Virus record (IMG/VR): IMGVR_UViG_3300035181_000505
Coordinates: 1 to 32,993 of that record
DNA length: 32,993 nucleotides
Direction: 5' to 3' (one strand)
DNA from: a virus
Shown: in pieces, positions 111 through 32,295 of the stretch
Layout: the number at the start of each line of letters is the position of its first letter
Numbering within the stretch: position 1 is the stretch's first letter
Notes under the pieces: generated by a model
Told to the model about the DNA's origin: nothing
Databases searched by the model: none
What the model saw: only the letters and a program-made list of their open reading frames with translations
Position numbers and translations under genes: made by a program

Positions 111-212
111 ATGAACAAATTCCACGCCTTGAAGGACCTTAGCAAGGATTACGTGCACGTAGGAACAGCTTTACTTGTGGGCGATATCACAGGGCCGGAG
201 TTCACTCAATGA
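111..212 (+). CDS. Small 33-residue hypothetical protein
   Basis: ATG at 111 opens a 33-codon frame that ends in TGA 210-212, sharing ATGA with the scaffold start at 209. That coupling, together with tight packing between the upstream stop and the scaffold gene, argues for a translated leader gene. The product begins MNKFHALKDL and has a short hydrophobic middle. There is no clear Shine-Dalgarno sequence before its ATG. I do not recognise the protein. It may be a small head protein or mainly a coupling peptide for the scaffold. Confidence 0.45.
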   Translation: MNKFHALKDLSKDYVHVGTALLVGDITGPEFTQ

Positions 213-6208: not shown

Positions 6209-6455
6209 TACCAACCTTAACATTTCTGCCAACACCCCTGCTCTAGATGGTGTTGATAACATCGATTCGCGCTTTGCTCGAAGTTGGTATGGTTTTTTTG
6301 TAACACTTGCTCAGAAAGTCAGGATACTGGATGGCGGTGAGTCGACTTCGGCCACGGCGGGGGTTGCGTCTGCATTACCTGTTACACCTGCTGGGTACCT
6401 GACAATCATTGACAGTACAGGGGCAGATAAAAAAGTTCCGTACTACAACCCATGA
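6198..6455 (+). CDS. Small tail-region hypothetical protein (85 aa)
   Basis: The frame overlaps the end of the gp10-like gene by 11 bases and the next gene by ATGA, so it is almost surely translated. The product has an Asn/Ser-rich start, a conserved-looking aromatic stretch (SWYGFFVTLAQKV, about 30-42) and a C-terminal beta stretch GYLTIIDSTGADKKVPYY. Small proteins of this type occur beside the gp10 gene in short-tailed phages, probably in the virion. I cannot assign a function; a needle-linked or fibre-linked role is only inference. Confidence 0.7.
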   Translation: MSNNTNLNISANTPALDGVDNIDSRFARSWYGFFVTLAQKVRILDGGESTSATAGVASALPVTPAGYLTIIDSTGADKKVPYYNP

Positions 6456-7021
6456 AAAATTTTCAACGTCTCACAACCGGGATGGACGTCAAACCATTAA
6501 TGTTAGCTGTCGCTCGTCGCCCAGAACTCTGGAAAGAGGACACATATTTACGTGATTATCCTCAGGGTCCGTTCAAGATGATTGAGTCAATCATGTTACG
6601 ATTCCCGGTCAAATCGGTATGTGAGACTGAGGCTGAATTGCAAGATCATCTGAGCAAGTATGACCAACACGAGAATGTTGACTATCCGGCATATAAGCTG
6701 CTCACTGAGGCTCGTCCGATAGTGATGAATTTGATGCACTATGTGGGTGGTGAACGTCTGGGTCGGGTCATGATTAACAAGATCGCTCCCGGTGGAATGA
6801 TTTTCCCTCACGCAGATACCCCCGAACATGCCGAATACTATAGTCGTTTTCATGTTGTTCTACAGAGCACACTTGGCTGTCGTTTTCGTGCAGGAGACGA
6901 AGTAGTGCATATGGGTACTGGCGAAGTATGGTGGTTCGATAACAAGCAAGAACATGAAGTGGTGAATGAGGGGACAGATGACCGAATTCACATGATAGTT
7001 GACATTAGGACATCCCGGTAA
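6452..7021 (+). CDS. Aspartyl/asparaginyl beta-hydroxylase-like 2-oxoglutarate/Fe(II) dioxygenase
   Basis: This 189-residue protein shows the double-stranded beta-helix signature of the Asp/Arg hydroxylase family. His120 and Asp122 form the HxD motif (IFPHADTP), His168 is the distal iron ligand (KQEHEVVNEG), and Arg178 is placed to bind the 2-oxoglutarate carboxylate. The family hydroxylates Asp, Asn or Arg in proteins, or small molecules, using oxygen. The substrate here is unknown. It overlaps its neighbours by ATGA and TAATG, so it is transcribed with tail genes and made late. It may modify a virion or host protein. The complete motif set suggests an active enzyme. Confidence 0.85.
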   Translation: MKNFQRLTTGMDVKPLMLAVARRPELWKEDTYLRDYPQGPFKMIESIMLRFPVKSVCETEAELQDHLSKYDQHENVDYPAYKLLTEARPIVMNLMHYVGGERLGRVMINKIAPGGMIFPHADTPEHAEYYSRFHVVLQSTLGCRFRAGDEVVHMGTGEVWWFDNKQEHEVVNEGTDDRIHMIVDIRTSR

Positions 7022-7476
7022 TGGATATTCAATTAGAAAGTTTTGAAGAGCGGTTAGAGGAGTTGCAGACTCTTCTGCCCCTCCATTACCGGGAATTGGC
7101 GCTAAACCAAGACAAGGTACCACTGTCTCCTCTTTACGATATTTATATTCAGCGTGAACGTCTGGGCCAGTTAATTTTTATGACAATGCGCCAAGATAGT
7201 GAACTGGTTGGGTACTTCATCGGGTTTATTGCTCCCGGCCTCCATTATAGTACGTGCCTCACTTGCACGATGGATATTTTTTTCATTCGGCCAGATATCC
7301 GAGGATCAGGTTTACCGGGACTTAAATTGTTCCGAGCCTTGGAAAAAGAATTAAAACAGCGGGGAGTACATCGCTGGTTCGTTGGGTCAAAAGCTAAAGC
7401 TGATGCCAGCGCGTTATTTGAGCGATTAGACTTTGAAAAAGTCGAAGTCTATTACTCTAAATGGATTGGGGATTGA
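7021..7476 (+). CDS. GNAT-family N-acetyltransferase
   Basis: The 151-residue protein has the GNAT layout: strands at about 62-70 (LVGYFIGFI) and 82-89, then the acetyl-CoA pyrophosphate loop RGSGLPG at 94-100, a following helix (KLFRALEKELKQRG) and a C-terminal ALFERLDFEK motif. It would transfer an acetyl group from acetyl-CoA to an amine on a protein or small molecule; the target is unknown. Its ATG shares bases with the stop of the hydroxylase gene, making a two-enzyme cassette set between tail and ejection genes. Sequence does not tell whether both act on the same target. Confidence 0.85.
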   Translation: MDIQLESFEERLEELQTLLPLHYRELALNQDKVPLSPLYDIYIQRERLGQLIFMTMRQDSELVGYFIGFIAPGLHYSTCLTCTMDIFFIRPDIRGSGLPGLKLFRALEKELKQRGVHRWFVGSKAKADASALFERLDFEKVEVYYSKWIGD

Positions 7477-7477
7477 T

Positions 7478-8911
7478 ATGGTAGCAGCAGCAGTAATTGG
7501 ATCAGCAGTAGTTGGTGGCATGGTGTCGAGCGCCTCCGCACGGCAAGCTACATCTGCTCAAACAGACGCAGCAAATAAGGCATCAGCGGCACAAATTACT
7601 GGTGCTCGTGAAGCAGGTGCAGCACTTGAAACAGCATCTACCACTGCTACCGGTCAGCAAAAGACAGGTTTAACTGCTGCAACCGCGATCAAAAACGCGG
7701 GTATCGATACCGCTCAAGAGCAGAACCGTACTGGAATCGTACGGGGAGCAGAAGCTCAGATCATTGAGGCTCAAGAGGCACAACGTACTCTTGATGCTGC
7801 TATTGCTACTGGCTCTCAACAACAGATTGACGCCGCGAAAGCAGCATTGGTAACGAAAACTGATTATGCTAATCAAGCGATTGCGGCTGCTCAAGCTGGT
7901 GCTGCTCAAGCTGGTCGAATAGCGGACAGTCATGCAGCAGATGCGAATTCCACAGTACGAGGATTGTTGGGCGAGACTCGTGCTGATCTTGACCCATATA
8001 TGACTGCTGGTAAGAATGCCACGCAAATGATGGATACAGGTAACCAACCCGGGGGAGAGTTCCATAACTTCACCAATACAGATTTCGTCAAGGACCCCGG
8101 CTATCAATTCCGGATGGACGAGGGGTTGGGTGGTGTCAGTAATAGCGCTGCCGCTCGAGGTGGGTTGTTATCTGGTAACACATTGAAAGCACTGACTCAG
8201 TACGGCCAGAATTATGCGTCTAATGAATTTGATAAGGCATATGGCCGTTATACCACTGACCAAAATAACCGCTTTTCGCGTTTGAGTAGCTTGGCTGATC
8301 GTGGACTCACAGCAACAGGCACTATGGCCAACGCCAATAACCAAGCCGGTCAAACGATGTCGAACAATACGATGCAAGCTGCGACTATCGGTGGAAATGC
8401 CGCTTCGAGTGCAGGTCAATTTGCTGGTGCTACCCTCAACAATCTCGGTACTTACGCCGGTGATACGGGTAAGGAAATCGGTAATATCCAAGGCACCGCT
8501 ACTCTAAATACTGGCAAAACTCGGGCCGATACTTTGAATGGTATCGGTACTGTGGCCAATAATACATATAGGGATGTAGCTTCGAATGAAGTAGCTGGTA
8601 CAAATGCTCATACTGCCGCAAATGCTGATTACGCCAGCAACTCAGCCAATATCGATGCTAACAGCACCTTGGCGATCGGCAACGCTCGGGCGGCTGCGGC
8701 TACTGGTGTAGGCACGGCTACTGCTACTGGTGCACTCAACATAGGTAACGCCGCAGCCGCAGGTGCTACCACGCAAGGTCAGATTTTCAACAATGCTCTC
8801 GGTAAAGCAACTAATGCCTTTACCAGCTTCCAAGCTCTTAATGGTCCGGGAGCCGGGACCACACCATATATTGATGCCAATGGCCAAATGGTATACCCCA
8901 AGAAGACTTAA
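7478..8911 (+). CDS. Internal virion / DNA ejection protein, P22 gp7-like position
   Basis: I start at ATG 7478, just after the GNAT stop; the longer frame at 7433 would overlap that gene. The 477-residue product begins with a hydrophobic Ala/Val/Gly segment (AAAVIGSAVVGGMV), then long Ala/Gln/Thr helices. A characteristic block near 175-265 includes DPYMTAGKNA, KDPGYQFRMDEGLGGV, SAAARGGLLSG and ALTQYGQNYASNEF. That block is widely found in podovirus DNA-transfer proteins. The C-terminal half is Asn/Ala/Thr-rich repeats. Such proteins leave the head with the DNA and help it cross the envelope. It is the first of three such genes. Confidence 0.8.
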   Translation: MVAAAVIGSAVVGGMVSSASARQATSAQTDAANKASAAQITGAREAGAALETASTTATGQQKTGLTAATAIKNAGIDTAQEQNRTGIVRGAEAQIIEAQEAQRTLDAAIATGSQQQIDAAKAALVTKTDYANQAIAAAQAGAAQAGRIADSHAADANSTVRGLLGETRADLDPYMTAGKNATQMMDTGNQPGGEFHNFTNTDFVKDPGYQFRMDEGLGGVSNSAAARGGLLSGNTLKALTQYGQNYASNEFDKAYGRYTTDQNNRFSRLSSLADRGLTATGTMANANNQAGQTMSNNTMQAATIGGNAASSAGQFAGATLNNLGTYAGDTGKEIGNIQGTATLNTGKTRADTLNGIGTVANNTYRDVASNEVAGTNAHTAANADYASNSANIDANSTLAIGNARAAAATGVGTATATGALNIGNAAAAGATTQGQIFNNALGKATNAFTSFQALNGPGAGTTPYIDANGQMVYPKKT

Positions 8912-10373: not shown

Positions 10374-12128
10374 ATGCCAAACATCCAATTTGATGTCGAA
10401 GGTGCTCGTCAGCATTATAGTGACGACCAAATCGCGGATGCGCTCGCTCAAAAGGCAAACTTTGACGCAATAGGTGCTCGGTCGGCTGGTTACAAAAGTA
10501 TCGACATCATTAACCGGTTGGTTGCCCCTAAACAAACGTCATCCCCTACCCCGGTTCTTCAAGATAACATCGGTAAGATGGACGATAATGGCGCAATTGA
10601 CGCGGCAGTTGTTGGTGCCGGTCGAACGGTAGATCGTATTGGTAAAGGCATGAAACAGCTGTGGTATGGTATCACCAATAATGACAAAGCCGCTGCTGAC
10701 TTGAAGATGGAAGCGGACGAGGATAACAAGCAGTATGCTAAGTTACAAGAACAACATCCGGTCACCACAGCTATCGGAGAATCTCTACCTTCGATGGCCA
10801 TACCTATCGGCGCACCTGCTACTACCCTCGCGACTGCTGGCCGGATGGTTGCTGCATCTGCAATACCTGCTGCTTTGGAGTATGGAAGCACGGAAGAACG
10901 GACCAAAAATGCCACCGGCGCTGCAACGGGAGCAGTGGTCGGTGGTGTATTGGTACCTAAGGCGGCTGGTGCTGCATATCAAGCTGGAAAGAACACACTT
11001 CGTTCAATGGTTGGCGACGTGACCCCAGAGGCGATTGCTTTAGCCCAAAAAGCAGAGGCGGCAGGAATCAAAGTCAATGCTGCTCAACTCGGGGACAGCA
11101 AATTCCTCAAGACATTGGCGTCAGCCTTGGAGCAGATGCCCTTCACTGGTGCAGCCCAAACAGCTTCCAAGCAACGAGGCGACTTCACTCGTGCCGTGTC
11201 CAAGACATTTGGCGATGACGTCGATAAGATCACTCCGGAAGTTTATGCCCGGAACCGTACTCGTCTCGGCCAATCATTCGATGACTTGTCGATGCGTAAC
11301 ACACTGAATCTGGACCGCACCACATTAGATCGTCTAGACAATACACTCAATGAGGCACGGCAATTTGGTGATGACGGAACCATTCGTGCCGTTGAAAATC
11401 TCTATAATCGCGTTATTCGTCAATCAGAGGCGACAGCTAAAGAGGTACCATCAGCCTTTGAGGGAATTCCGGCTCACAGGACATTTGTTGAAATCCCCGG
11501 TGCGGCTTATTCGTCGATGGATAAATCCATGGGCGAAATCATCAAAGCTGGTGGTGAAAAAGGCAATTACGTTAAACAGATGCAGCTGGCACTTCGCGAA
11601 GCGATGGATCGTTCAATCAGTCCTGCCGATAAAGAGACGTGGAATCAGACTCGCACTCAATATAAAAATTTGAAAGCGATTCGGGACGTTGTATCTCGTG
11701 ATGCCGCTGACGGTAACGTACCCCCAACAACGCTGATGAATGCTTTGAACAGTACAGAGGCGGGCAAGGAGGCAATGGCCATGGGGAACCGCGGTGGATT
11801 AGGTGATTTGGGACGTATCGGACGCCAATTCGTCCGGGACCAAGTACCGAACTCTGGTACTGCTCAACGTGCAATCGCCATGGGTCTGATTGGTGGTGGT
11901 GGATATGCTTTCGGGGCAGAACCTTCACAGATCGCTGGAATGATGGCCGGAGGCGCGACTGCTGGCCGTGTACTGAATAAAGTGTTGAATAATCCAAATG
12001 TCGTCGCTTCTCTCGGCAAACAAGGCATGACAGTAGCGGACCTTGTTAAATTACCGCCGCCTACCATCGCTCGAATCCTTGGTGGCATCACTGGTGTAAC
12101 AATCGCTGAATCTAAAAACGGGAATTAA
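10374..12128 (+). CDS. Internal virion / DNA ejection protein, P22 gp16-like position
   Basis: I start at ATG 10374, two bases past the previous stop; a TTG frame at 10350 lies inside the upstream gene. The 584-residue product opens MPNIQFDVEGARQHYSDD, an N-terminal form (F-D-V-x-G-A-R, then an acidic helix) common in large podovirus ejection proteins. A hydrophobic, membrane-active-looking stretch lies near 125-180, where GESLPSMAIPIGAPATTLAT is followed by AAIPA-type sequence. A second lies near the C-terminus (IAMGLIGGGGYAFG, AGMMAGGATAG). It probably inserts into or crosses the inner membrane during DNA entry. No lytic transglycosylase motif was recognised. Confidence 0.75.
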   Translation: MPNIQFDVEGARQHYSDDQIADALAQKANFDAIGARSAGYKSIDIINRLVAPKQTSSPTPVLQDNIGKMDDNGAIDAAVVGAGRTVDRIGKGMKQLWYGITNNDKAAADLKMEADEDNKQYAKLQEQHPVTTAIGESLPSMAIPIGAPATTLATAGRMVAASAIPAALEYGSTEERTKNATGAATGAVVGGVLVPKAAGAAYQAGKNTLRSMVGDVTPEAIALAQKAEAAGIKVNAAQLGDSKFLKTLASALEQMPFTGAAQTASKQRGDFTRAVSKTFGDDVDKITPEVYARNRTRLGQSFDDLSMRNTLNLDRTTLDRLDNTLNEARQFGDDGTIRAVENLYNRVIRQSEATAKEVPSAFEGIPAHRTFVEIPGAAYSSMDKSMGEIIKAGGEKGNYVKQMQLALREAMDRSISPADKETWNQTRTQYKNLKAIRDVVSRDAADGNVPPTTLMNALNSTEAGKEAMAMGNRGGLGDLGRIGRQFVRDQVPNSGTAQRAIAMGLIGGGGYAFGAEPSQIAGMMAGGATAGRVLNKVLNNPNVVASLGKQGMTVADLVKLPPPTIARILGGITGVTIAESKNGN

Positions 12129-16269: not shown

Positions 16270-16763
16270 TGCCTATCCGCCTCAGCGATCTGCTGGATAA
16301 GCTTCCAGATGTACCCGAACCAGTTAAAGAGTATTCTGGTTGGAATAAATTCATGGAGTTGAACGACAAGGCATCGAAAGCATCTGGAGACGCATTTCCC
16401 GGCCAAGATTGGGACAATACTCAACGAAATGCGGCCCGCCATTCGATATGGATGGGGTTGATCGCTAACCAATTGGGCGGGGGTCCGATCGCCCGTACCG
16501 CCGCTAAGGGACTCGGCTACGCTAACGAAGCGATCGGTTTGGTCAATGGTCAAAACACGACTAGGGAGGGCGCTATTGATATGCGCCATGACCTGAATAA
16601 TAATGCTGTGGGCCTTAACACGCTAGCTGATCTAAACGCTCAAGGCCCGGTATCTGAACAACAAATTATCGACGCACTGATTCAAAAAGCGAAGCAAAGC
16701 CAGCGCGTGTCCGCTCCAAGCGTTTTAGCGCCAGATGTCGGCGTTCTGACAAGGGGCCAGTAA
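16269..16763 (+). CDS. Hypothetical protein with a His/Asn motif (DUF6973-like)
   Basis: ATG 16269 overlaps the holin stop (TAATG). The 164-residue product has a polar N-terminus, then Asn54-Ala-Ala-Arg57-His58 in RNAARHSIWMG, Asn86-Glu87 in GYANEAIG, and Asp108 with Asn110-112 in DLNNNAVG. This spaced RH...NE...D-x-NN arrangement resembles the DUF6973-type domain found in some toxins and phage proteins; I am not certain of the match. The motif looks like a catalytic or metal site. The last 98 bases of the gene run antisense to the minus-strand gene ending at 16666. A lysis accessory or host-targeting role is possible but unproven. Confidence 0.65.
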   Translation: MPIRLSDLLDKLPDVPEPVKEYSGWNKFMELNDKASKASGDAFPGQDWDNTQRNAARHSIWMGLIANQLGGGPIARTAAKGLGYANEAIGLVNGQNTTREGAIDMRHDLNNNAVGLNTLADLNAQGPVSEQQIIDALIQKAKQSQRVSAPSVLAPDVGVLTRGQ

Positions 16764-17184
16764 AAAAGGTCAGACCCCAAATCAGCCCGATAAAACAAAT
16801 CAGACTGACCCACCCCATTTGATCGATATAGAAGGGGTTCCCAATATACGGCCATAGGGGATTCATATCAGCGTGAACAAGGGAATCTACGAACACATGG
16901 GTTCCTACTCCCCATGCGAAACCTTCATTGATGCGGGCGGCTCGGGGGTCGCGTTCCCGATACACCGCCTTCGTCCAGACCCAACAGAACCAAGACATGA
17001 AGAATGCGATTAGGTAGTTATGAGTAACTTCATGTAATTCGCCCGGTAATTCGAACAAAATCTTCGCGATCGGTTCAATATCGATCAGGCAGTTCGCCCA
17101 AACAAAGGCCGGAACGGAAAACTTGTCGCCTCTAATCACTTTCAGAGGGGTCGCAAGGCCAAAATGTAATGGGGTGATGGGCAT
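16666..17184 (-). CDS. YdjM-type membrane-bound metal-dependent hydrolase
   Basis: The 172-residue protein has the family's His/Asp pattern: His7 in the PLHFG start, Asp35, His51 and His55 (HEVTHN), then GTHVFVDSLVHAD with His96, Asp100, His104 and Asp106, followed by NPLWPYIGNPF. Hydrophobic segments at about 57-72 and 124-142 suggest an inner-membrane protein. The YdjM family is annotated as putative metal hydrolases with unknown substrate. It is the last gene of the minus-strand block and has its own consensus promoter (17206-17234) and an AGGAG ribosome site. Its end overlaps the plus-strand gene by 98 bases. Confidence 0.8.
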   Translation of the reverse strand: MPITPLHFGLATPLKVIRGDKFSVPAFVWANCLIDIEPIAKILFELPGELHEVTHNYLIAFFMSWFCWVWTKAVYRERDPRAARINEGFAWGVGTHVFVDSLVHADMNPLWPYIGNPFYIDQMGWVSLICFIGLIWGLTFFTGPLSERRHLALKRLERTRAGFASLFESVRR

Positions 17185-17205: not shown

Positions 17206-17234
17206 ATTATATCAGATAGTGGCGTCTTTGTCAA
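17206..17234 (-). promoter_or_regulatory. Perfect-consensus sigma-70 promoter
   Basis: Read on the minus strand, TTGACA (17234-17229), 17 bases, then TATAAT (17211-17206) followed by AGAG. Both hexamers and the spacing are exact consensus. It overlaps the 3' end of the PrimPol gene and would start a transcript about 15 bases before the AGGAG ribosome site of the YdjM-like gene (ATG 17184). Confidence 0.85.
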
Positions 17235-19791
17235 TCTCTATTCCTGCCGACTTCGGGAACTTGATGGACTTCCGTGCCTGATCGATGGACGACCATAAGT
17301 GCGGCAGCGCCTCCCGGCTCAGATCGTTTGCGTAAGTGGAACCCATCCACTTTTGGGATGGGCGGGTCTTCTTGAAACCGATGCCCCGGAGTATCTTCTG
17401 GAGTCGCATGACGTCCTGTTGGGTCTGTCGGGAGGTATCTATCTGGAGCAGTACCCCGAGAATCGTGTGCATCGCGCCCAACCGCACGTTAAAGTCCTCG
17501 GTAGGCTGGCCATTGATAAACCGGGGGACTGCGAAGAATAATTCGTTCGCGTAGCTGTCTGGGTCGGTGAGGGCATTGCGGATTTTGAGGAACCATGGCT
17601 CGGTATTCTCAATAGACATCTGGCGGTCGGCTTGTTCTTCCGCCACCATTTCGGTGGGAACCGTGTACCAATCTTCTCCACCTTCAAATGCCTCAACTGC
17701 CTCAGCCCATAGCTGGTCCCGGTCCTGTTTGAGTAGTGACGTCTTAACCAGCCCACTCTCACCTACGTGGCATGGCCAGAAGCGTCGTGCGCCCGTCAAA
17801 TCAGCGATATATGCCTGACCTACTTCATTCGTAGTGCCTGCAAAGACGCAAGTACGGGGGTAGGATTTGGCGTCACGTTCGTAACTCAAGCGGACGTCAT
17901 CAACGGTAGTAGTCAGAACCGCTTTCAAGGCTTCCATATCACCTTTTCGGACAGTCGCCAACTCTGACATTTCAACAATTAGTTTACCCGAAATCACGGC
18001 TACCATGTCCTTGTGCATTGTGCCGGTCCCAGTCATACCCCCGGAATACTCAGAGTAGAATTGCCCACCGAGCGCCCGGAGAGCCTGTGACTTGCCGATT
18101 CCTTGGATACCTTCGAAGATTAGCATGTGGTCAGCTTGGCATCCGGGTTCCATCGCCCGAGCCACGGCACTGATCAGCCATTTGCGACCAATAGCACGAG
18201 TATAAGCGGTGTCCTTCGTGCCCATGTAATGTGGCAACCACTCGTCCAAACGTTTGACACCATCCCAACGCATTTCCTTTAAGTGGACCCGGAGCGGGTT
18301 GACCCGGAATTCCTCGGCTAGATATTTAATCACAGCGGCAACGTGGAATTGCTTGACCCACGAATCGCCCATCGTGTGGAATTTTACCATCAGGTTGATT
18401 TCGTCAACGTCTGATACCCTCGGGCAATCAATGTCACCAATCTTCCCGGCACGGATACGGTGGTCGAAATCTGCAATCCAGAACATAGGGCAACTGCCCT
18501 CTTCCTGCATCGCTCGGGTCTGGTTGATCAGCCCGACCAAGTTACCCTTCTCATTGTTCTCGCCAATCGTCGCCTTCTGGAATCGGGCGCGTTCGGCCTT
18601 GATTAGGTCTTCCAGCAGCAGGACCCGGAGCCGGACTGCTTCTTTCTTGAGTCGCTTGATGATACCGCCCAACTGCTTACCAGTAGCACAGGCGGATTGC
18701 ACCAATTCAGCATCCATATCGGCTTGGTCGCCATCGCACCACGCTTTCAGTCGGTCATAGACTGTTTCCGGGTCTTTATATGTCGGGTCGATTTTCTCGC
18801 GAAATTCCTTCCAACGATACGCAGAACAACTGTCATGCAGACAACGATATACGGGGCGGTTATTAACCAGACCCACCATGGGAGATTGATGATTTTCATT
18901 GAATGGGCACTTTGAAATGATCCACTTCTGACCCTCGTTGCCGAACATCGGACGGGGACCGCTTGTAATGGTCTGCCCGCGATCGGCTAGCCATTTCACT
19001 ATGTCGGTGATATATTCCCCGGTCATGTCCCGGTATTCTTCACTCTTGGCATCCCGGAGTGGGCGGGCCACATTATCAATTTGCTCCCGTGTCAATAACT
19101 TTAACTCAGCGGGAATCTTTGTAATCATCGCTACTCGGTGCGGGCGCTCGTCAGTACTACTACCCTTGGCGCTTATCGTGCCGTACACCTTCCAAACCCG
19201 GCTCGAGTTGAACACGGTGACGTCTACTTTAACCCGGTCATCTGAGAAAATGGACGAGAGCATCTTCAAAGCACACTCGAAGTCGATTCGGGAAGCGTCA
19301 TCAGCGGGTTCGTCGACCTTATACATCACGTGGACGCCATTCCCGGAATCGGCCCGCACGGGTTCCGGCCAACCAATAGAAGTCAGCCAATCAGTAACAA
19401 CCTCTGCTTTGTCACGGGCTTCCAGCAATTCAGCATCTGAAGAGGATATCCCTGCAGGGCGTACCGGGTCGAAGTCCATTAGGAACCATTTACGGCGGAT
19501 GACATCGCTATCAGATGATGTCAAGAATGTACCGTATTCGAACCGATTCTGGCACCGGGCCAGCAAATCCGGGTTGATCGGGTTGACGGTGACGTAAATA
19601 GCTTGGTGCTTGCCGTTTTCCTTGGCTATCAGTGCGGCGGCGATGGCGGTGTCATTAAAGTATCCGCTAATAGTCCCCGCTTTGGTCTTGGGAATGCGTA
19701 CCTCGAATACGCCCCCCGGCTCTTGGATAAGGTCTAATGCGGCTTTTACCAGCATAGCTGGCTTTGTCTCTCTGTATTCTTCGAAATTCAT
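17212..19791 (-). CDS. PrimPol-helicase fusion (AEP primase, zinc motif, VapE-type AAA+ helicase)
   Basis: This 859-residue protein combines three parts. Residues about 1-210 form an archaeo-eukaryotic primase-like domain, with Asp106 and Asp108 (FLMDFDP), SGNGVH at 149-154 and Asp190. A zinc ribbon follows with Cys295, His301, Cys317 and Cys322. From about 500 comes a VapE/D5-type ATPase: WDGVKRL, Walker A GIQGIGKS (561-568), Walker B LIVEMSE (604-610), sensor AGTTNE (651-656) and the TGARRFWP arginine motif. It would prime and unwind phage DNA at the fork. Its ATG overlaps the nuclease stop (ATGA). It ends just before the promoter of the YdjM-like gene. Confidence 0.88.
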   Translation of the reverse strand: MNFEEYRETKPAMLVKAALDLIQEPGGVFEVRIPKTKAGTISGYFNDTAIAAALIAKENGKHQAIYVTVNPINPDLLARCQNRFEYGTFLTSSDSDVIRRKWFLMDFDPVRPAGISSSDAELLEARDKAEVVTDWLTSIGWPEPVRADSGNGVHVMYKVDEPADDASRIDFECALKMLSSIFSDDRVKVDVTVFNSSRVWKVYGTISAKGSSTDERPHRVAMITKIPAELKLLTREQIDNVARPLRDAKSEEYRDMTGEYITDIVKWLADRGQTITSGPRPMFGNEGQKWIISKCPFNENHQSPMVGLVNNRPVYRCLHDSCSAYRWKEFREKIDPTYKDPETVYDRLKAWCDGDQADMDAELVQSACATGKQLGGIIKRLKKEAVRLRVLLLEDLIKAERARFQKATIGENNEKGNLVGLINQTRAMQEEGSCPMFWIADFDHRIRAGKIGDIDCPRVSDVDEINLMVKFHTMGDSWVKQFHVAAVIKYLAEEFRVNPLRVHLKEMRWDGVKRLDEWLPHYMGTKDTAYTRAIGRKWLISAVARAMEPGCQADHMLIFEGIQGIGKSQALRALGGQFYSEYSGGMTGTGTMHKDMVAVISGKLIVEMSELATVRKGDMEALKAVLTTTVDDVRLSYERDAKSYPRTCVFAGTTNEVGQAYIADLTGARRFWPCHVGESGLVKTSLLKQDRDQLWAEAVEAFEGGEDWYTVPTEMVAEEQADRQMSIENTEPWFLKIRNALTDPDSYANELFFAVPRFINGQPTEDFNVRLGAMHTILGVLLQIDTSRQTQQDVMRLQKILRGIGFKKTRPSQKWMGSTYANDLSREALPHLWSSIDQARKSIKFPKSAGIEIDKDATI

Positions 19792-20219
19792 ATTGCAGTT
19801 TCTTTTCTGAGATAAGGGGGTAGCTGTTCAGCGATCAACTGGCGTTGGAATTGGATGTCACTCAGCGCTGAAATATCTGCATAGCAGGTTGCGTCGGGAA
19901 TTTCCTTATGATAACGACCGGGGATAACGAAGACCCGCTCGACGATACAGATCATGAAATGAATGGGCATGAAAGGCGCCCATCTGCGAATATACTGATG
20001 TTGGGATGCTTCCACCCCGATCTTGTTCCGGGGGTTGATATCCTTATCGATAGCCTTGATTTCCAACCACCCAACTCGAAAACCATCAGCAGGTATCACG
20101 TAATGCAAATCCGGGACCCCCGGTGAAACTTGGCGGTCCTCATGCCAAGTCATCATCCAGTGGTCCCGCATACGGGGTTCCAGATAATCCCGGAACTTCT
20201 GTTCAGGGAGCCTTGCCAC
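19788..20219 (-). CDS. VRR-NUC type PD-(D/E)XK nuclease
   Basis: The 143-residue protein carries a compact nuclease site: Gly34-x-Pro36-Asp37 (GVPDLHY) and Glu53-x-Lys55 in WLEIKA, with a QHQYIRRW helix near 72. VRR-NUC enzymes are structure-specific nucleases or Holliday-junction resolvases. In phages they cleave replication or recombination intermediates. It overlaps the 3' end of datZ by 17 bases and the PrimPol start by ATGA, so it is made with the Z module. How it discriminates 2-aminoadenine DNA from host DNA, if it does, is not visible. Confidence 0.82.
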   Translation of the reverse strand: MARLPEQKFRDYLEPRMRDHWMMTWHEDRQVSPGVPDLHYVIPADGFRVGWLEIKAIDKDINPRNKIGVEASQHQYIRRWAPFMPIHFMICIVERVFVIPGRYHKEIPDATCYADISALSDIQFQRQLIAEQLPPYLRKETAI

Positions 20220-20772
20220 CGTTTGCCTCGTAAGCGTAGAACATCAAATTGTCATGGATGTGGAAGTGTATATTATCTGACCATTCGAACTCTTTGATAG
20301 CCCAATTGATCTTCTTGATATACTGCTCTTCGAGTCCCTCCTGTGCATGGCGGGCAGTCAGGTCGACACCATGCAGGCGGATAAACCGGATACCGTCTGC
20401 AAGGTCACATAGTTTGATCAATGCGATAGTGGCGGGCGATGCAGGAATAGATAGTTCTTTCGGGGTCACTATTTCCTCCAGATCATCCAAGCTATCGATA
20501 TGTCGCTTAGTGTGTGTCGGGACGTCGCCGGTAAACGCTTCCGGGATATCATGCACCAGTGCAGCAGCACCAACAACGGTATGTGTGTCAAACGTGTTGA
20601 CGGGAGCAGTCTTCGCAATAGTCATCGCTAGCAGCGCGACATTTGCGGAGTGCTCAGCCAATGTTTGCTGACGCGTCGTGTCAATCATATGCCAGCGTTT
20701 CACGGCGTGGAGCCGCATTACTGTTTCTAAGGCGTGGCGCTCCTGCCCGTAAGCGAGAAATTCACTCAACAT
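20203..20772 (-). CDS. datZ: DatZ, HD-domain dATP triphosphohydrolase
   Basis: The 189-residue product has the HD-domain metal site: His41 (TLAEHSANVALLA), His74-Asp75 (AALVHDIPEAFTGDV) and Asp126 in LCDLADGIRF, with Arg26-Trp27-His28 near the N-terminus, as in YfbR/DatZ proteins. DatZ removes the triphosphate from dATP, giving deoxyadenosine, so adenine is kept out of phage DNA while dZTP is spared. In known Z-phages it sits with purZ and mazZ. Here it overlaps mazZ by 11 bases and the nuclease by 17. A 5'-deoxynucleotidase role like host YfbR would be the alternative, but the context makes DatZ far more likely. Confidence 0.9.
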   Translation of the reverse strand: MLSEFLAYGQERHALETVMRLHAVKRWHMIDTTRQQTLAEHSANVALLAMTIAKTAPVNTFDTHTVVGAAALVHDIPEAFTGDVPTHTKRHIDSLDDLEEIVTPKELSIPASPATIALIKLCDLADGIRFIRLHGVDLTARHAQEGLEEQYIKKINWAIKEFEWSDNIHFHIHDNLMFYAYEANGGKAP

Positions 20773-21040
20773 GACTTGCTACCCCCAGATCGTTGATTGT
20801 CCATTTACGTTGATTATTGATCGCCATTTTACGGCGTATGGCTCCTTCGATGTCGAACATCTGCTTGGAGCCATAATCCAACAGCATGATCATGACGTCA
20901 GCATATTCCTCTTCGGACTGCGCCTCGACCAGTTCCCCGATTTCAGAGAACAACTTCATGAACATACTGGAGGGGGTGCGATTCGGGAATAGCTTATCGG
21001 CATGGACCTGAACTTCATAGGCAAAATTATCGATGCTCAT
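20762..21040 (-). CDS. mazZ: MazZ, MazG-like dGTP pyrophosphohydrolase
   Basis: The 92-residue all-helical protein shows the MazG metal-binding pattern Glu33-x-x-Glu36 in LFSEIGELVEA and Glu45-x-x-Asp48 in EEYADVMIMLLD. It belongs to the short MazG-like (DUF550-type) group. In the Z pathway MazZ converts dGTP to dGMP and pyrophosphate, supplying the substrate of PurZ and lowering competing dNTPs. Its ATG shares ATGA with the purZ stop and its end overlaps datZ, so the three are tightly coupled. The assignment to MazZ rather than a general house-cleaning MazG rests mainly on this context. Confidence 0.87.
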   Translation of the reverse strand: MSIDNFAYEVQVHADKLFPNRTPSSMFMKLFSEIGELVEAQSEEEYADVMIMLLDYGSKQMFDIEGAIRRKMAINNQRKWTINDLGVASHVE

Positions 21041-22107
21041 TTCAGTCCTCTAACTTCCCGGCGTGGGATCACGTTACTGTCATCCGGCCCGTAACCAAAC
21101 CACTGAACTTTGGGTGGATTAAAGTATCCCTTACCACCTTCTTCAATCAGCCGCAACACAGTATCGAAATCAGCAGGGTCCTGCAGGTAGTTAACGAAAT
21201 TGAGGAACACCCGAGTATCCCAATAGCCGCCACAATGGAACATCGCCTCTTCCATCTGTTTGCGGGAGAATGAGAATATACGGCGTTTCAGCTTGGTCAC
21301 TGTCGTGAGTTCCGGGGCGACGCCGGGGAATCCATCCCAATCGAGTTCAACCTGATCAGGATAGCAGGGACCGGATGACCCGTCACGATTGTTCACTCGG
21401 ATAGGGAAAGTACGGCACGCGCCAACAACCTTGACATAACTGGCCCAACGATATGGGAGTCCACAATCAGCAGCGATCTGCCAAGGAGTAACATCACGAC
21501 TTGTCGTGTAGGGATATTGTCCGTGATACATTGAGAGGCTGAATCCTTGAGCACCTTCAATGAGAACGTTTTCGGCTTGTTCGAGTGCGGCACGGTAGTC
21601 GTCCTCAGATACGACATATTTCCCAAGTGGTTCAAGCCAGAATCGTTCCTTGGCGATGTTTGGACCATCTGGATGACGTTGAATGCGCTCGATCGCAGCA
21701 GCCCCACAACCCTTGGTGGTAGACCCAATCTTGGTCATACCCCAATCTACTTCTTGCTTGGCGTGGTAATTCTCAACCACTGCCGCTTGGGGGTGAATCA
21801 TAATTCGCTTGTCTTTGAGCCGTCCGTGATTCTGAGCAATCTCATTCAAAAGTGTGTCGTGGTGGATAAGTGCGCCCGGCCCGATCAAAATATTCTTCAC
21901 TGTGTCCGAAGACACCGCCCCGGTGGGCAATTGCTGTGTCATCACGTGCATTTCACGCTCTTTGTCAATGTAGGTGTGCCCCGCATTGGTGGCGAACGAA
22001 CAAACTACGGTATCATAATTCTCCCGCTTGGCTAGATATCCGGCGATCAGTCCTTTCCCTGTGCTTCCATACTGGAAGTCCATAACCATGTCGACTTTAT
22101 GGGTCAT
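21037..22107 (-). CDS. purZ: PurZ, 2-aminoadenylosuccinate synthetase
   Basis: I choose ATG 22107 because it follows AAGGA at proper distance and the dpoZ stop; ATG 22128 would lie inside dpoZ. The 356-residue enzyme is an adenylosuccinate synthetase homologue with P-loop FQYGSTGKG (11-19). The PurA catalytic Asp of GDEGKGK is Ser15 here. NAGHT (41-45), EGAQG (184-188), YPYTTSRDVTPW (198-209) and TVTKLKRR (269-276) follow in PurA order. PurZ couples dGMP and aspartate, using ATP or GTP energy, to make the dSMP precursor; host PurB then yields dZMP. It is flanked by dpoZ and mazZ with 1-4 base junctions. This is not host PurA. Confidence 0.96.
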   Translation of the reverse strand: MTHKVDMVMDFQYGSTGKGLIAGYLAKRENYDTVVCSFATNAGHTYIDKEREMHVMTQQLPTGAVSSDTVKNILIGPGALIHHDTLLNEIAQNHGRLKDKRIMIHPQAAVVENYHAKQEVDWGMTKIGSTTKGCGAAAIERIQRHPDGPNIAKERFWLEPLGKYVVSEDDYRAALEQAENVLIEGAQGFSLSMYHGQYPYTTSRDVTPWQIAADCGLPYRWASYVKVVGACRTFPIRVNNRDGSSGPCYPDQVELDWDGFPGVAPELTTVTKLKRRIFSFSRKQMEEAMFHCGGYWDTRVFLNFVNYLQDPADFDTVLRLIEEGGKGYFNPPKVQWFGYGPDDSNVIPRREVRGLK

Positions 22108-22108
22108 A

Positions 22109-23941
22109 TTAGTCCTTACTTGCTTCATACCAATTACTACCGAATTTAGCGGAGGCGGTTATTGGTACCCGCATCCGCACTACACTACTCTCGGAATTGA
22201 AATCAGTGTAAACCTTAACTAATCGCTGCTTGACTTCTTCATCCGGGAGCATCGAGATACCGGCTTCGTCGTGACAAGACATCATCAGTCTCGCTGGAAG
22301 CCCGCCCGCCCGAATTTCGTCATCAATAGCGATTAGTCCTAACTTGTGGAGGTCGGCGGCATATGCTTGGTACAGCAGACCCGCTGCCTTATGCGCCCCC
22401 ATGCCCCTCGGGAACCTCAGTCTCCTGCCCATGGCTGTTTTGACAAACCCTGTCTCCTTCGCAATGACCTCGGCTTGCTTCATAAATACCTTGACACCGG
22501 GCAGCGTCTTGTGGTACATATCGAATATATCGGTCGCTTCTTGTCCCGGCACGTACGCCATCTTGCCCTTGTACTCCTTGATGGTATAGGGCATGTTCAT
22601 CATGAATGCCAACTTACCAGCCCCGGCCCCAAAGGATAATCCCAGATTGATCTGCTTCGTGTTTGGAGCACCGGCATGGGTGGCATTACGAGGGATACCC
22701 GTCATATCACTGACGATCTGGTGGTAATCCATGCTCGGGTTATCATTATATGCCTGAATCACATCAGGGATGTTTTGAAGGTGAGCACCGCAACGGAAGT
22801 CTACCTGTGAGTAATCGGCACAAAGCCATTCTTCCCCGGCATCGGGTAGGAACATGGCTCGGAGGATTGCAGCATTAGCTTTGTCACGTTTTGTAATCTG
22901 CTGTAACGCCGGGTCTGTAGATGATAAACGTCCGGTGACAGTCCCCGCATCTGCATCGTTACGTGTTTGATTGAAGGAGGTATGTACGTACCCATCCCCA
23001 TCAGCACTTCCAATAACATGACCTCGGATGAAGGTGTCCCGTAACTTGATGGTCTTGCGAAGAGCCTGTATTTTCTTAGCCAATGGATGCTTGATTTCCC
23101 GCATGACGTTTTGGTCAAGCGACGGGCCTTTGCCCCCTTTGGTAGGTCCAACCAACGTACCATCGATGAGACGCCATTGGAATTTGCTGATCGGCTCTGG
23201 CTTGAAGAAAGCCCGGACTTGCGGTGTACTGTTGACATTGAATTTACCTCCTGCAATTTCGTTGATTTCGGACTGTAACTGCTCTTCCTTGACATCTAGA
23301 TCGGGGATTGCTGCGTGGGCGGCTTCCAGATCGACCCGGACTCCGCCCCAAGACATATCGGCCAAGACAGGGAGCAGACGCATTTCAAGGTCAAGCACCC
23401 GTTCCAACTTTTGTTCGGTGATCTGGATAGCTTGGGTGCGATAAATAGCAAGGGCATCAGAAGCGTCAGAGGCACCGTACGGGGCCACTATAGCTGCAGG
23501 GACCTCTCCTAGTCTCCGGAGTACCTCGGTGGTACTGCTCCACCCCATCGCCGCCCGGATAGCCTCCAGATGCTCTAGCTTCTGGGACACGACCCCCCGA
23601 TAACCCGCAATAGAGGCCAAGTCATAGGTCAGGTGGTGTTCGTCAATGAGGCACTCGGCAACCATGGTACAATACCATTGGACGGAGCGTGGGTCTATTT
23701 TGAAGTGTCTCGTGCACTGGTAGTCAAATTGAGCGTTCTGCGCCACGACCGAGCGGTTACGTAGAGTATCCCGGAGCCAATCAGCAACACGAGGAGTCTC
23801 ACGAACATCCCAATACCAACTGCTATTCCCGTGAGCAACAGCAATACCAAATACACCAAAATCTGGTGACCAATACTGAAGACCTGTCGTTTCATAATCC
23901 AGTCCTATTGTTTCACCAGCGGGTATATTTGGGAATGTCAT
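22109..23941 (-). CDS. dpoZ: DpoZ, family A DNA polymerase with 3'-5' exonuclease
   Basis: The 610-residue enzyme starts at ATG 23941; the longer frame would read through a terminator. Exonuclease motifs are Asp15/Glu17 (LDYETTG), Asn69/Asp73 and Tyr155-x3-Asp159. Polymerase motifs are TGRLSSTDPALQQI (336-349), motif A DYSQVDFR (376-383), motif B around Lys429 (KQINLGLSFG) and motif C HDE (557-559). No 5'-3' exonuclease domain. DpoZ enzymes co-occur with PurZ and prefer dZTP over dATP. Motif B departs from family A: Ala425 where Arg is usual, Leu433 for Phe and Phe437 for Tyr. There is no ribosome site before the ATG. Confidence 0.92.
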   Translation of the reverse strand: MTFPNIPAGETIGLDYETTGLQYWSPDFGVFGIAVAHGNSSWYWDVRETPRVADWLRDTLRNRSVVAQNAQFDYQCTRHFKIDPRSVQWYCTMVAECLIDEHHLTYDLASIAGYRGVVSQKLEHLEAIRAAMGWSSTTEVLRRLGEVPAAIVAPYGASDASDALAIYRTQAIQITEQKLERVLDLEMRLLPVLADMSWGGVRVDLEAAHAAIPDLDVKEEQLQSEINEIAGGKFNVNSTPQVRAFFKPEPISKFQWRLIDGTLVGPTKGGKGPSLDQNVMREIKHPLAKKIQALRKTIKLRDTFIRGHVIGSADGDGYVHTSFNQTRNDADAGTVTGRLSSTDPALQQITKRDKANAAILRAMFLPDAGEEWLCADYSQVDFRCGAHLQNIPDVIQAYNDNPSMDYHQIVSDMTGIPRNATHAGAPNTKQINLGLSFGAGAGKLAFMMNMPYTIKEYKGKMAYVPGQEATDIFDMYHKTLPGVKVFMKQAEVIAKETGFVKTAMGRRLRFPRGMGAHKAAGLLYQAYAADLHKLGLIAIDDEIRAGGLPARLMMSCHDEAGISMLPDEEVKQRLVKVYTDFNSESSVVRMRVPITASAKFGSNWYEASKD

Positions 23942-23959
23942 TGTACTATTAAAACTATT

Positions 23960-23986
23960 AAAAAAGACCGGGGGGATAACCCCCGG
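23960..23986 (-). terminator. Strong intrinsic terminator just before dpoZ
   Basis: On the minus strand CCGGGGG, loop TTAT, CCCCCCGG (23986-23968) is followed by TC and six T (23965-23960). This is a textbook rho-independent terminator, only 18 bases before the dpoZ ATG. Confidence 0.85.
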
Positions 23987-23990
23987 CCAT

Positions 23991-24029
23991 AAAATCCCCG
24001 GCTGGCAACTGCAAAGAAGCGCACCGGGG
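23991..24029 (-). terminator. Second, weaker hairpin upstream of the dpoZ terminator
   Basis: CCCCGG (24029-24024) pairs with CCGGGG (24001-23996), loop 22 bases, followed by ATTTT on the minus strand. It lies between the stop of the ssDNA-binding candidate (24046) and the strong terminator, making a tandem pair. Confidence 0.55.
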
Positions 24030-24045
24030 CAGGGAGACAACTGGT

Positions 24046-24831
24046 TTAAATTTCGCCGCGATCAGAGCCGCCAGCGTCGGCGGCAGGGGCCGCACTTGCG
24101 TGGTCAGCTACGACCATACCGGCACGGAAGGACTCATAGAGGCGCTCGGCTTCTTTGTAGACCTTTTCCGGTGGGAATCCTGCGGGTTGGACCACGAAGT
24201 TCTTAAACTTCTGGCCTTTCTTGTTCTCGTCGGTAAACGAGGACAACTTATAAACACGGGCGAAGCGATCACCGCCAGCGATCTGAATCATGGCATTCCA
24301 TTTGCGGCTGACCTTGCTCTTGGTCTTGGCCATAGAAATCACGATCTGTTCGCAAACGCCATCGGGGGTGATACGCAGACCATAATGGACGGGGGTGTCC
24401 ACCACTTCCACGATGTTGCCACCTTTGGAGGTAGTGCCAGCCAATTGCGGGTCATTACCAATCACGAGGTCGCGCTTCTCATTGGCCTGTTCCAGAGTGG
24501 GGAACGAACCGTGGAAACCACCACCGCTGTCCTGATCTTGCCACACGAGGTATTCCAACTGGAAATATACCGGGACAAAGTAGGCAACGTCGCCAATGAC
24601 CTCTTGAGTCACGCTGTTAAATAGCTGTCCGTCGCGGGCATCGGGGTCGAGTTCCTTGATGGGGCTGAGTGCCTGAACAATTTCCAGACGGGGGAGGACC
24701 ATATCGGAAGATTTAACTTCCTCAGAGCCACGGGCTGTGTCCTGCTTGATATAGCTTGGGACTACTGATTGCGCAAAGGCCAAATCGGATGATTGTGCGA
24801 CTGCGACTTCTGTCTTCTTACTGGTAGCCAT
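24046..24831 (-). CDS. Putative ssDNA-binding protein
   Basis: I start at ATG 24831, preceded by AGAGGAAA; the longer frame from 24876 runs through a terminator. The 261-residue protein is beta-rich with MVLPRLEIVQALSP near the start and PVYFQLEYLVWQ in the middle. It has a Lys-rich centre (KTKSKVSRKWNAM) and an acidic flexible tail ending GGSDRGEI. This layout, and the place before the DNA polymerase, matches phage proteins thought to bind single-stranded DNA. No classical OB signature is unmistakable, so the function is inferred. Hairpin terminators on both sides suggest separate dosage control. Confidence 0.6.
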   Translation of the reverse strand: MATSKKTEVAVAQSSDLAFAQSVVPSYIKQDTARGSEEVKSSDMVLPRLEIVQALSPIKELDPDARDGQLFNSVTQEVIGDVAYFVPVYFQLEYLVWQDQDSGGGFHGSFPTLEQANEKRDLVIGNDPQLAGTTSKGGNIVEVVDTPVHYGLRITPDGVCEQIVISMAKTKSKVSRKWNAMIQIAGGDRFARVYKLSSFTDENKKGQKFKNFVVQPAGFPPEKVYKEAERLYESFRAGMVVADHASAAPAADAGGSDRGEI

Positions 24832-24856: not shown

Positions 24857-24892
24857 AAAAAGGTCCCGCTGTGCACCGTACAGGTAGGGACC
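24857..24892 (-). terminator. Intrinsic terminator before the ssDNA-binding gene
   Basis: GGTCCC (24892-24887) and GGGACC (24867-24862) form a six-base stem, with CTGT/ACAG able to pair in the loop, and five T follow (24861-24857). It lies between the genes at 24980 and 24831, leaving 25 bases before ATG 24831. Confidence 0.7.
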
Positions 24893-25802: not shown

Positions 25803-27536
25803 CTATTCACCTACAAGGGAGATATCCTTCCCTGCTTTTAGACGGGTCATGATATATTCCTCTATTCCCATCTTTTCAGCGATGGCTGCGATTATCGCTT
25901 CATCGATGGTCTTTTCCATCACCATGTCGACTATTGTAACGGTCCGATGTTGGCCGATTCGGTGGGCACGGTCTTCACTTTGCGCACGATCAATATATGC
26001 ATTAGTCCCGGAATAGTAGACCATGGTGTCGTCCATTCCGGATATAAGAGTAAGTCCAAGACCTGCCGTAGCTGGATTGCCCACGAAGAATCGAAGGGAT
26101 GGGTCGTTGCAATATCGATCTTCAATTCTTGAGCGTTCTTCTTTGTCAGTTGCTCCATAGTACAACGCCACACTATCAGGGCCATACTTTTCGGACAGCT
26201 TTGTTGCGATATATTCGAGTTCATGAACAAACGTGCTCCATACAATGAATTTACTGCCATCGAAGTGGTCAGCAATCAGGTCAAAAAATGAATCCATCTT
26301 GGGATTCGACTTCAGCGGTTCCAACGTTACTTTTTCAGTCAGGGGGTCCTGCCGGGGCAACCATCCACCCACGATCTGACGCCACCTAAGGACACGCTCA
26401 AGTACGTTATCTACCTTGATAAGCGGGGCGTTCGGGTCATCACTCATTCCCTTCTTGATCATCTTCAAAAGCGCTTTCTGCTCAGGGGTCGCCGTGACAT
26501 AACGCTGTTTTATCATTTTAGGCGGCAGATTAAGGACGCCCTTACCTACTTCGACTGTATATGGCTCAATCAGGGTCATCAATTCTTCGACATTCTTGAA
26601 CCCGATAATCTGCTTGCCCTCGTAACCGCCCATTTCTATATAGCGCGTCTTGAACGACCACCAATCTCCGGCACCGATGATGTTGGGGTCTAGAAATTCA
26701 TATTGTGCGAATAGGTCTTGAAGACCGATCGCAATGGGTGTTCCGTTGAGTATGATTCGATACGCGGAAGCATCGCGAAATTCAATCGTGCGCTTCGTTC
26801 GGAGAGCCGTGGGGTTCTTAATGCGTGAGGATTCATCGCAGATGACCATGACATTGCGATGGGGGAAGAAACCACAAACACTATCGAATAAGGATTCTGA
26901 GACACCAAGACCTTCCACTGATACCGCGAGGACTTGAAGCTTCCCGGATTTCCGGTCGTTATAGAAGTCCTGCAACCACCCGGCTTTGGTTTCATGAGAT
27001 TTGAACTCATATTCAACGGTGGCGTACTTGAGCAACTCTTTCCGCCACGTAGCTCGAAGGGTAGAGGGGCAAACAATGACAACTGAATCGATCTGCCCGC
27101 CAAGGTACCGAGCGCAAGCCAAATGGATCGCAGCAAATGTTTTGCCTGTCCCCATCTTCGCGAACCATGCGGCAGCAGGAAGGTTCCAAACTTTGTCGAG
27201 CATGCGGCGTTGATGGTCCATAGGGTCGTAGGGCGTTGCGGACTTTTTGAAGTCATATAGATGGTACGGGAAGGGCTGATATATAGGCCCGCTCGTGAGC
27301 GCCTCATAATTCCTGATAGCTTCGGATGCTTCTGGTGAAAGAACATATTCGATAATGTGTTTGGATTGATTCAGGTGTTGGATGTTGCCACGAGTTAACG
27401 GCATCTGCCAAGTCTTGGACTTTGGTTCAAATCGGCGGGCTGGGAAATTGCGCATGGCATCCGCCAGAAAGAACGGGGCGACCATCTGTAATCTTTTTGT
27501 TTTCGGCAGGTAACCTACTTTGACTTGATTATTCAC
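25803..27536 (-). CDS. SNF2-type superfamily 2 helicase
   Basis: The 577-residue protein has all SF2/SNF2 motifs: DHQRRMLDK (107-115), Walker A MGTGKT (128-133), DESSRIKN (234-241), NGTP (264-267), then DPNIIG-W-x-F in the second lobe. Late motifs are STFVHELE, GNPATAGLGL and QSEDRAHRIGQ with Arg fingers. Such enzymes use ATP to move on double-stranded DNA, remodel proteins on it or help replication start. It starts with GTG 27536, which overlaps the previous stop (GTGA) and has GGAGG upstream. Similar helicases sit beside polymerase and primase genes in many podoviruses. Confidence 0.9.
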   Translation of the reverse strand: MNNQVKVGYLPKTKRLQMVAPFFLADAMRNFPARRFEPKSKTWQMPLTRGNIQHLNQSKHIIEYVLSPEASEAIRNYEALTSGPIYQPFPYHLYDFKKSATPYDPMDHQRRMLDKVWNLPAAAWFAKMGTGKTFAAIHLACARYLGGQIDSVVIVCPSTLRATWRKELLKYATVEYEFKSHETKAGWLQDFYNDRKSGKLQVLAVSVEGLGVSESLFDSVCGFFPHRNVMVICDESSRIKNPTALRTKRTIEFRDASAYRIILNGTPIAIGLQDLFAQYEFLDPNIIGAGDWWSFKTRYIEMGGYEGKQIIGFKNVEELMTLIEPYTVEVGKGVLNLPPKMIKQRYVTATPEQKALLKMIKKGMSDDPNAPLIKVDNVLERVLRWRQIVGGWLPRQDPLTEKVTLEPLKSNPKMDSFFDLIADHFDGSKFIVWSTFVHELEYIATKLSEKYGPDSVALYYGATDKEERSRIEDRYCNDPSLRFFVGNPATAGLGLTLISGMDDTMVYYSGTNAYIDRAQSEDRAHRIGQHRTVTIVDMVMEKTIDEAIIAAIAEKMGIEEYIMTRLKAGKDISLVGE

Positions 27537-32236: not shown

Positions 32237-32295
32237 TACCGCTCGTCGGCTAAGAGATACCGCTCGTCGGCTAAGAGATACCGCTCGTCGGCTAA
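32237..32295. repeat. Three tandem 21-bp direct repeats
   Basis: The unit contains CCGCTCGTCGGCTAA and repeats at 32237, 32258 and 32279. The first two copies are perfect, the third stops after the shared core. The repeats abut the possible promoter, suggesting a regulator or replication-initiator binding array. Confidence 0.9.

Follow-up and report, generated by a model that had tools for sequence, protein, structure and literature searches.

Does a phage with a P22-type head carry the genes needed to replace adenine by 2-aminoadenine (Z) in its DNA? The question is raised by IMG/VR virus record IMGVR_UViG_3300035181_000505, a linear contig of 32,993 bases from an uncultured virus of bacteria. 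This whole stretch of DNA, called the window below, is probably a fragment of a genome. An earlier interpretation, called here the sequence-only reading, had placed four adjacent and overlapping genes for DpoZ, PurZ, MazZ and DatZ at positions 20203-23941. The coordinates proved exact, and profiles, solved structures and active-site residues agree with the four assignments. We estimate at about 90% the probability that the window carries a complete module for the synthesis of ZTGC-DNA, of the PurZ kind known from phages phiVC8, SH-Ab 15497 and S-2L, in an uncultured P22-headed podovirus lineage. The four genes, which overlap by 20, 4 and 11 nucleotides (nt) in turn, are the following.

22109-23941, minus strand: dpoZ, family A DNA polymerase with a 3'-5' exonuclease domain, phiVC8-like
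21037-22128, minus strand: purZ, succino-2-amino-deoxyadenylate synthetase
20762-21040, minus strand: mazZ, (d)GTP pyrophosphohydrolase of the MazZ-1 type
20203-20772, minus strand: datZ, HD-domain dATP triphosphohydrolase

The closest solved structures to the window PurZ are the PurZ enzymes of phiVC8 and S-2L (PDB 6fko/6fm1/7odx), and the protein scores 306.1 bits against the curated NCBIfam family NF038379 (cut-off 300). Published residue determinants (PMC8342488, PMC8065100, PMC8599892) were checked on alignments with reference phages. Ser22 replaces the catalytic Asp13 of E. coli PurA, and a serine is found at this position in every aligned member of the clade to which the window belongs. 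The residues of the S-2L pocket for deoxyguanosine monophosphate (dGMP) are kept, with a threonine at the variable Cys204 position and an asparagine, like in phiVC8, at that of Gln308. In the PurZ tree, which contains long branches, a node with support 97/98 unites the window with all PurZ rows and excludes four PurZ0 sequences and E. coli PurA. Within it, the window lies in a clade of 10 members, itself and nine uncultured contigs, with support 100/100. A PurZ0, Wayne-like affiliation was rejected from both the tree and the residues. No close relative of PurZ encoded in bacterial genomes was found.

DpoZ scores 863 bits against the curated NCBIfam family NF038380 (cut-off 500), and its best solved structure is phiVC8 DpoZ (PDB 7pbk, E-value 2e-98). 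The signatures of phiVC8-like DpoZ enzymes are L455, F459, G548 and insertions 1 to 3 (PMC8599892). The window enzyme has L433, F437 and G521, the conserved Arg418 and insertions 1 and 2; its insertion 3 is shorter than that of phiVC8. The combination of L433, F437 and G521 with insertions 1 and 2 is missing from four PolA proteins of non-Z phages and from E. coli PolA. A glutamate occupies the position of phiVC8 Ser583, which is not clade-specific (PMC8599892). The DpoZ tree recovers the same 10-member uncultured clade as the PurZ tree, again with support 100/100. Taken together, the two trees set the clade apart as a lineage of its own, on a long branch, within the PurZ/DpoZ-2 kind of PMC12884076. 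Among the phage matches listed, the best 40 of DpoZ all (40/40) come from phages that are also listed for PurZ. A TTG start at 24040 was rejected for dpoZ, because the frame would cross the terminator hairpin described below and because homologues start at the position of the ATG.

The best solved structure for MazZ is that of S-2L (PDB 7ody, E-value 7e-11). Residues E33, E36, E45, D48, I51, D55 and R78 of the window protein correspond to E35, E38, E50, D53, I56, D60 and R83 of S-2L MazZ, I51 and D55 being the S-2L-type residues near the guanine. With small home-made profiles, the protein obtains 70.5 bits for MazZ-1 and 8.6 bits for MazZ-2. From these scores the MazZ-2 type, that of phiVC8, was rejected, and by residues and profile the protein is assigned to the S-2L type, MazZ-1. 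DatZ matches the dATP triphosphohydrolase family PHROG 7076 (E-value 4e-23), and its best solved structure is S-2L DatZ (PDB 6zpa, E-value 1e-14). In this family the residues that bind metals and phosphates are strictly conserved, and W20, I22 and P79 are conserved or conservatively replaced (PMC8065100). All metal- and phosphate-binding residues are kept in the window protein, where R26, H41, H74, D75, E78, K89, K120 and D123 are present. The tryptophan that excludes a 2'-OH is also kept (W27). The position of Ile22 is occupied by a methionine (M29), as in ZP6 and Bm1, and that of Pro79 by a histidine, which is also found in Burkholderia phage Bm1. Thus, the diagnostic residues that the sequence-only reading had seen in each protein are there for essentially all four enzymes, apart from this histidine and methionine in DatZ and the glutamate of DpoZ at phiVC8 Ser583. 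For DpoZ, MazZ-1 and DatZ, the sequences of the clade are divergent from those of every characterised enzyme.

Several observations weigh against a complete and working module. PurZ exceeds its curated cut-off only narrowly (306 versus 300 bits). The short form of DpoZ insertion 3 occurs in all clade members, and the long branch of the clade DpoZ is joined to the tested phiVC8-like enzymes with support of only 81/80. The histidine at the DatZ Pro79 position is a non-conservative change, present in the whole clade except in contig L011. Finally, the window contig is a metagenome fragment. Some of these points bear on the possibility of a mixed genome, in which leaky removal of dATP or the choice made by the polymerase would leave both A and Z in the virion DNA. 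Pro79 contacts the base, and its replacement together with the methionine for Ile22, the shortened insertion 3 and the long branch of the clade DpoZ could all go in this direction. Moreover, adenine replacement by the S-2L cluster in E. coli was significant but incomplete (PMC8342488). However, the same or similar DatZ substitutions are found in other PurZ phages (the histidine in Bm1, the methionine in ZP6 and Bm1), and the four genes stay together throughout the clade. We therefore consider a mixed or partial Z genome unlikely.

Family, residue and structure-sequence comparisons agree for all four enzymes, and the trees add to them for PurZ and DpoZ, which supports the pathway that had been proposed for the window. 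By analogy with the characterised relatives (PMC8342488, PMC8065100, PMC8599892, PMC12884076), MazZ would convert (d)GTP into (d)GMP, and PurZ is predicted to join dGMP and aspartate to give succino-2-amino-dAMP. Host PurB and nucleotide kinases, as described in the literature, would then complete the synthesis of dZTP. DatZ would strip dATP to dA, making A unavailable, and DpoZ, with its proofreading domain, would prefer Z opposite T. The expected outcome is virion DNA in which Z replaces A and which is protected from many host nucleases.

The second half of the question concerns the head. The window encodes the following proteins of P22 type or with matches to head and ejection families.

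209-1132, plus strand: head scaffolding protein (PHROG 8865, E-value 4e-53)
1154-2365, plus strand: P22-type coat protein (PF11651, 110 bits, cut-off 24; 71% identity to Rhodoferax phage P26218)
4784-6208, plus strand: P22 gp10-type packaged-DNA stabilisation or head closure protein (PF11134, 59 bits; PHROG 578, E-value 1e-124)
7433-8911, plus strand: DNA ejection protein (PHROG 598, E-value 1e-24)
10374-12128, plus strand: DNA ejection protein (PHROG 26400, E-value 4e-74)

The description of the virus as P22-like is borne out by the coat, gp10 and ejection proteins; the portal and terminase are not on the window contig. No match to the P22 portal was found on this contig, where the scaffold gene is the first head gene. 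On six related Z-contigs, a P22 portal is present with scores of 503-595 bits. The P22 coat is found on nine uncultured IMG/VR Z-contigs from different metagenomes (the window and eight others), and PurZ and DpoZ are encoded on the same contigs. These data answer the concern that the link between a P22-type head and the Z-module results from a chimeric assembly. Such an error might be feared for a single metagenome contig, with no cultured example found. With nine contigs, six of them with the P22 portal, and a conserved gene order in the replication block, a chimera is refuted for practical purposes.

The P22 coat is absent from the eight cultured Z-phages tested, namely phiVC8, ZP6, S-2L, Ochrobactrum phage OH, SH-Ab 15497, PMBT28, Bm1 and BUCT555. 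The literature holds at least seven groups of Z-phages (PMC12884076). A search that covered few subscription papers found nothing relevant on a P22-like Z-phage, and no cultured example was found. No near-identical DNA is present in the phage collection. As the sequence-only reading had it, the pathway was already established in other phages and the novelty lies in the P22-type head. The gene set is known, and it is the carrier, an uncultured podovirus lineage with such a head, that is new. The S-2L type of MazZ, the sharing of the arrangement by a whole uncultured clade and the RNA element described below go beyond that reading. Phages for which 2-aminoadenine DNA is predicted thereby gain a P22-headed lineage.

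The closest known heads are those of Rhodoferax phage P26218, the nearest cultured one, and Podoviridae isolate ctfPj964 (71% and 69% identity for the coat, 45% for gp10). P26218 has a P22-type portal, and by analogy with this phage only, freshwater Burkholderiales are candidate hosts of the clade. Neither P26218 nor ctfPj964 encodes PurZ; they carry instead genes annotated as thymidylate synthase or 'pyrimidine hmase' together with HD genes. That the nearest cultured head comes from a phage without PurZ points to a transfer of the module from one capsid type to another. The same fact could be read differently, the four genes being remnants or serving another purpose: PurZ would be an ordinary PurA, DatZ and MazZ general enzymes of the nucleotide pool, and the DNA normal, homology alone being no proof of activity. 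Against this stand the open frames, the intact catalytic residues, the serine in place of the PurA aspartate and the DpoZ signatures, conserved over at least 10 contigs, and we regard remnant genes as very improbable. A complete Z-module remains our preferred reading. In the closest relatives of the window head, the HD-domain gene (12241-12780 in L048, 22615-23175 in L049) adjoins the gene annotated as thymidylate synthase or pyrimidine hydroxymethylase. The presence of these genes indicates that a different base modification may accompany the same kind of capsid.

The module is part of an operon, all on the minus strand, in which the nuclease and then the primase-helicase gene follow datZ, overlapping the preceding gene by 17 and 4 nt, respectively. 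With the genes upstream, the replication block, which is convergent with the structural genes, includes the following features.

17212-19791, minus strand: primase-helicase, with a probable N-terminal half of the archaeo-eukaryotic primase (AEP)/Prim-Pol kind and a VapE-type helicase C-terminal half (PF05272; fold match)
19788-20219, minus strand: nuclease with a resolvase-like fold (same-place counterpart in phiVC8 and ZP6; fold match)
24046-24831, with an alternative GTG start at 24876, minus strand: Pam3 gp34-like gene (PF23977, 201 bits; same place in phiVC8 and ZP6)
25803-27536, minus strand: SNF2-type helicase (PF00176)

By hhalign, the family of the nuclease corresponds to the phiVC8 gene in the equivalent position (probability 84). 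The nuclease model, with a predicted local distance difference test score (pLDDT) of 82, folds like Holliday-junction resolvases (best Foldseek E-value 0.002). The C-terminal half of the primase-helicase is a clear VapE-type helicase (228 bits with PF05272), and the protein has 32% identity to the helicase part of the S-2L PrimPol. The model of its N-terminal half is poor (pLDDT 60); the Foldseek list contains mainly AEP primases and Prim-Pols, with a best E-value of 0.004. From this low-confidence list of folds and the VapE half, a PrimPol is likely, not proven. Hence, the nuclease and PrimPol genes announced for the operon are both there, the PrimPol assignment being moderately supported. 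The gp34-like gene may have a role like that of a single-stranded DNA (ssDNA)-binding protein. The SNF2-type helicase is syntenic in phiVC8, ZP6, SH-Ab 15497, PMBT28 and the clade. The order gp34-like gene, DpoZ, PurZ, MazZ, DatZ, nuclease, primase is kept on the clade contigs that span this stretch.

The window shares with Vibrio phage phiVC8 (Enhodamvirus) and Alteromonas phage ZP6 (Mareflavirus), which are also podoviruses, the order DpoZ, PurZ, MazZ, DatZ, nuclease, a module convergent with the structural genes, and an SNF2-type helicase and a gp34-like gene upstream. Gene set and order thus match these two phages apart from the position of the primase, from which the pathway reading follows, given the work on phiVC8, SH-Ab 15497 and S-2L. 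In contrast with the window, phiVC8 and ZP6 have neither the P22 coat nor the P22 portal, their MazZ is a MazZ-2, and a PF09250 Prim-Pol/PriCT_2 primase lies between DpoZ and PurZ, whereas the VapE-type primase of the window comes after the nuclease. The window PurZ is about 43% identical to that of phiVC8 and about 37% to that of ZP6; for DpoZ the value is about 36%. Acinetobacter phage SH-Ab 15497, Salmonella phage PMBT28 and Burkholderia phage Bm1 also have DpoZ, PurZ, a MazZ-1 (DUF550-type) domain and DatZ, with similar residues. They differ by the lack of a P22 coat, and SH-Ab 15497 and PMBT28 also by the gene order around the module and by MazZ proteins longer than that of the window. 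In cyanophage S-2L, PurZ, MazZ-1 and DatZ are adjacent and in the same order, and the primase has a VapE-type helicase half. However, S-2L gives no DpoZ match and reportedly uses its PrimPol, which is encoded elsewhere on the other strand, and it has no P22 coat.

A further element lies on the minus strand between the gp34-like gene and dpoZ.

23958-24044, minus strand: double-hairpin RNA element, with a UCUCCC stretch, hairpin 1 and a terminator hairpin

Hairpin 1 (23996-24029) has a stem of 7 base pairs (bp), a loop that ends with UUUGCAGUUGCC and an unpaired A ahead of the 3' arm. The terminator hairpin (23966-23988) is a 9-bp intrinsic terminator, followed by U6 and then by the dpoZ ATG. 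No Shine-Dalgarno sequence is evident by eye before this ATG. RNA folding recovers both hairpins, with z = -2.9. The loop end can be generalised as YGCAGUUGCC. The clade contigs inspected have GCAGUUGCC before dpoZ, whereas it was not found in the L015 stretch or in the reference Z-phages; the stretches of phiVC8 and ZP6 that were read contain no GCAGTTGCC element. MAFFT placed the 5' arm of hairpin 1 wrongly, and the pairs were therefore counted after aligning the arms by hand, on a set that includes related sequences. Among eight distinct sequences, each of the three inner stem pairs is paired in 8/8, with four or five pair types. This covariation was reached by no single-column shuffle and by 4 of 20,000 whole-arm permutations.

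In 2.9 million viral contigs, a strict scan for the pattern matched at 12 sites, in each case (12/12) directly before a family A polymerase gene (polA). In a relaxed scan of the same contigs, stems of at least 7 bp were seen at 17 sites; 16 of these are directly 5' of polA, and ten of the 16 are among the strict 12. As the scans selected CCCC...GGGG stems, sites with other stems were unseen, and since some of these polymerases are related to one another, the 16 sites do not count as so many independent events. Sites with weaker stems (<7 bp) were rejected as instances of the element, none of the 12 being before polA. They are partly copies: three share a single sequence, which has a 6-bp stem and a terminator, and one of these three lies just 3' of polA. 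The element precedes the polA of distantly related phages in L065, L070, L146 and L147 and is located 3' of polA in L148. In L114, on the minus strand about 4990 from the start, a hairpin of 10 bp whose loop contains TTTGCAGTTGCC was observed between two genes; no polA match was found within 1.5 kb downstream of it. The motif was not found before the polA of P26218 or ctfPj964. A bacterial origin was rejected, since none of the 11 pattern matches in the collection of bacterial and archaeal genomes is before polA.

The sites include polymerases of phages without PurZ. Both such carriers from the strict scan (L129, also G026, and L131, also G028) and one more from the relaxed scan (G030) encode a protein of the 5-hydroxymethyldeoxyuridine (5-hmdU) DNA kinase type; L129 and L131 also encode a thymidylate-synthase-like protein. 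This suggests that the carriers without PurZ have thymine-modified DNA.

No Rfam family reaches its threshold with the element. The nearest are the Burkholderia double-hairpin small RNAs RF02278 and RF02837 (E-values 7.5e-4 and 0.018), which likewise combine two hairpins with a CU-rich stretch and a terminator (PMC5688073). Membership was rejected, the scores of 21.2 and 23.5 bits being below the gathering values of 50 and 49.5 bits, respectively. In position, the element has an analogue in the RNA operator of T4 gene 43, where a hairpin whose loop is conserved likewise precedes the gene of a phage DNA polymerase (PMC3014915). Unlike in that operator, a terminator stands between hairpin 1 and the start codon and the ribosome-binding site is not overlapped, so that a translational operator of the T4 gene 43 type was rejected. 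We see about even odds for an undescribed phage RNA element, composed of a covarying hairpin and a terminator and tied to the family A polymerase genes of distant Z-phages and 5-hmdU-kinase phages, which would act as an attenuator keeping the polymerase below the ssDNA-binding protein, as the source of a small RNA released from the upstream transcript, or both. Of these roles the attenuator seems to us the most likely, with the small RNA as a possible addition. A conserved RNA before the polymerase gene raises a testable question, that of polymerase expression relative to the upstream gene.

Other features of the window are recorded here. A full sigma-70 consensus match (12/12, TTGACA-17-TATAAT with TG) is located on the minus strand at 17234-17206, right at the 3' end of the primase gene, and points toward a YdjM-like gene (16666-17184); other promoter-like matches nearby are at chance level. 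The tail region encodes an aspartyl/asparaginyl beta-hydroxylase-like protein and a GNAT acetyltransferase (6452-7476, plus strand). An acetyltransferase is likewise annotated within the structural genes of ZP6, OH and BUCT555. Near the right end of the contig, a perfect 21-nt tandem repeat, TACCGCTCGTCGGCTAAGAGA, is present in 2.8 copies at 32237-32295.

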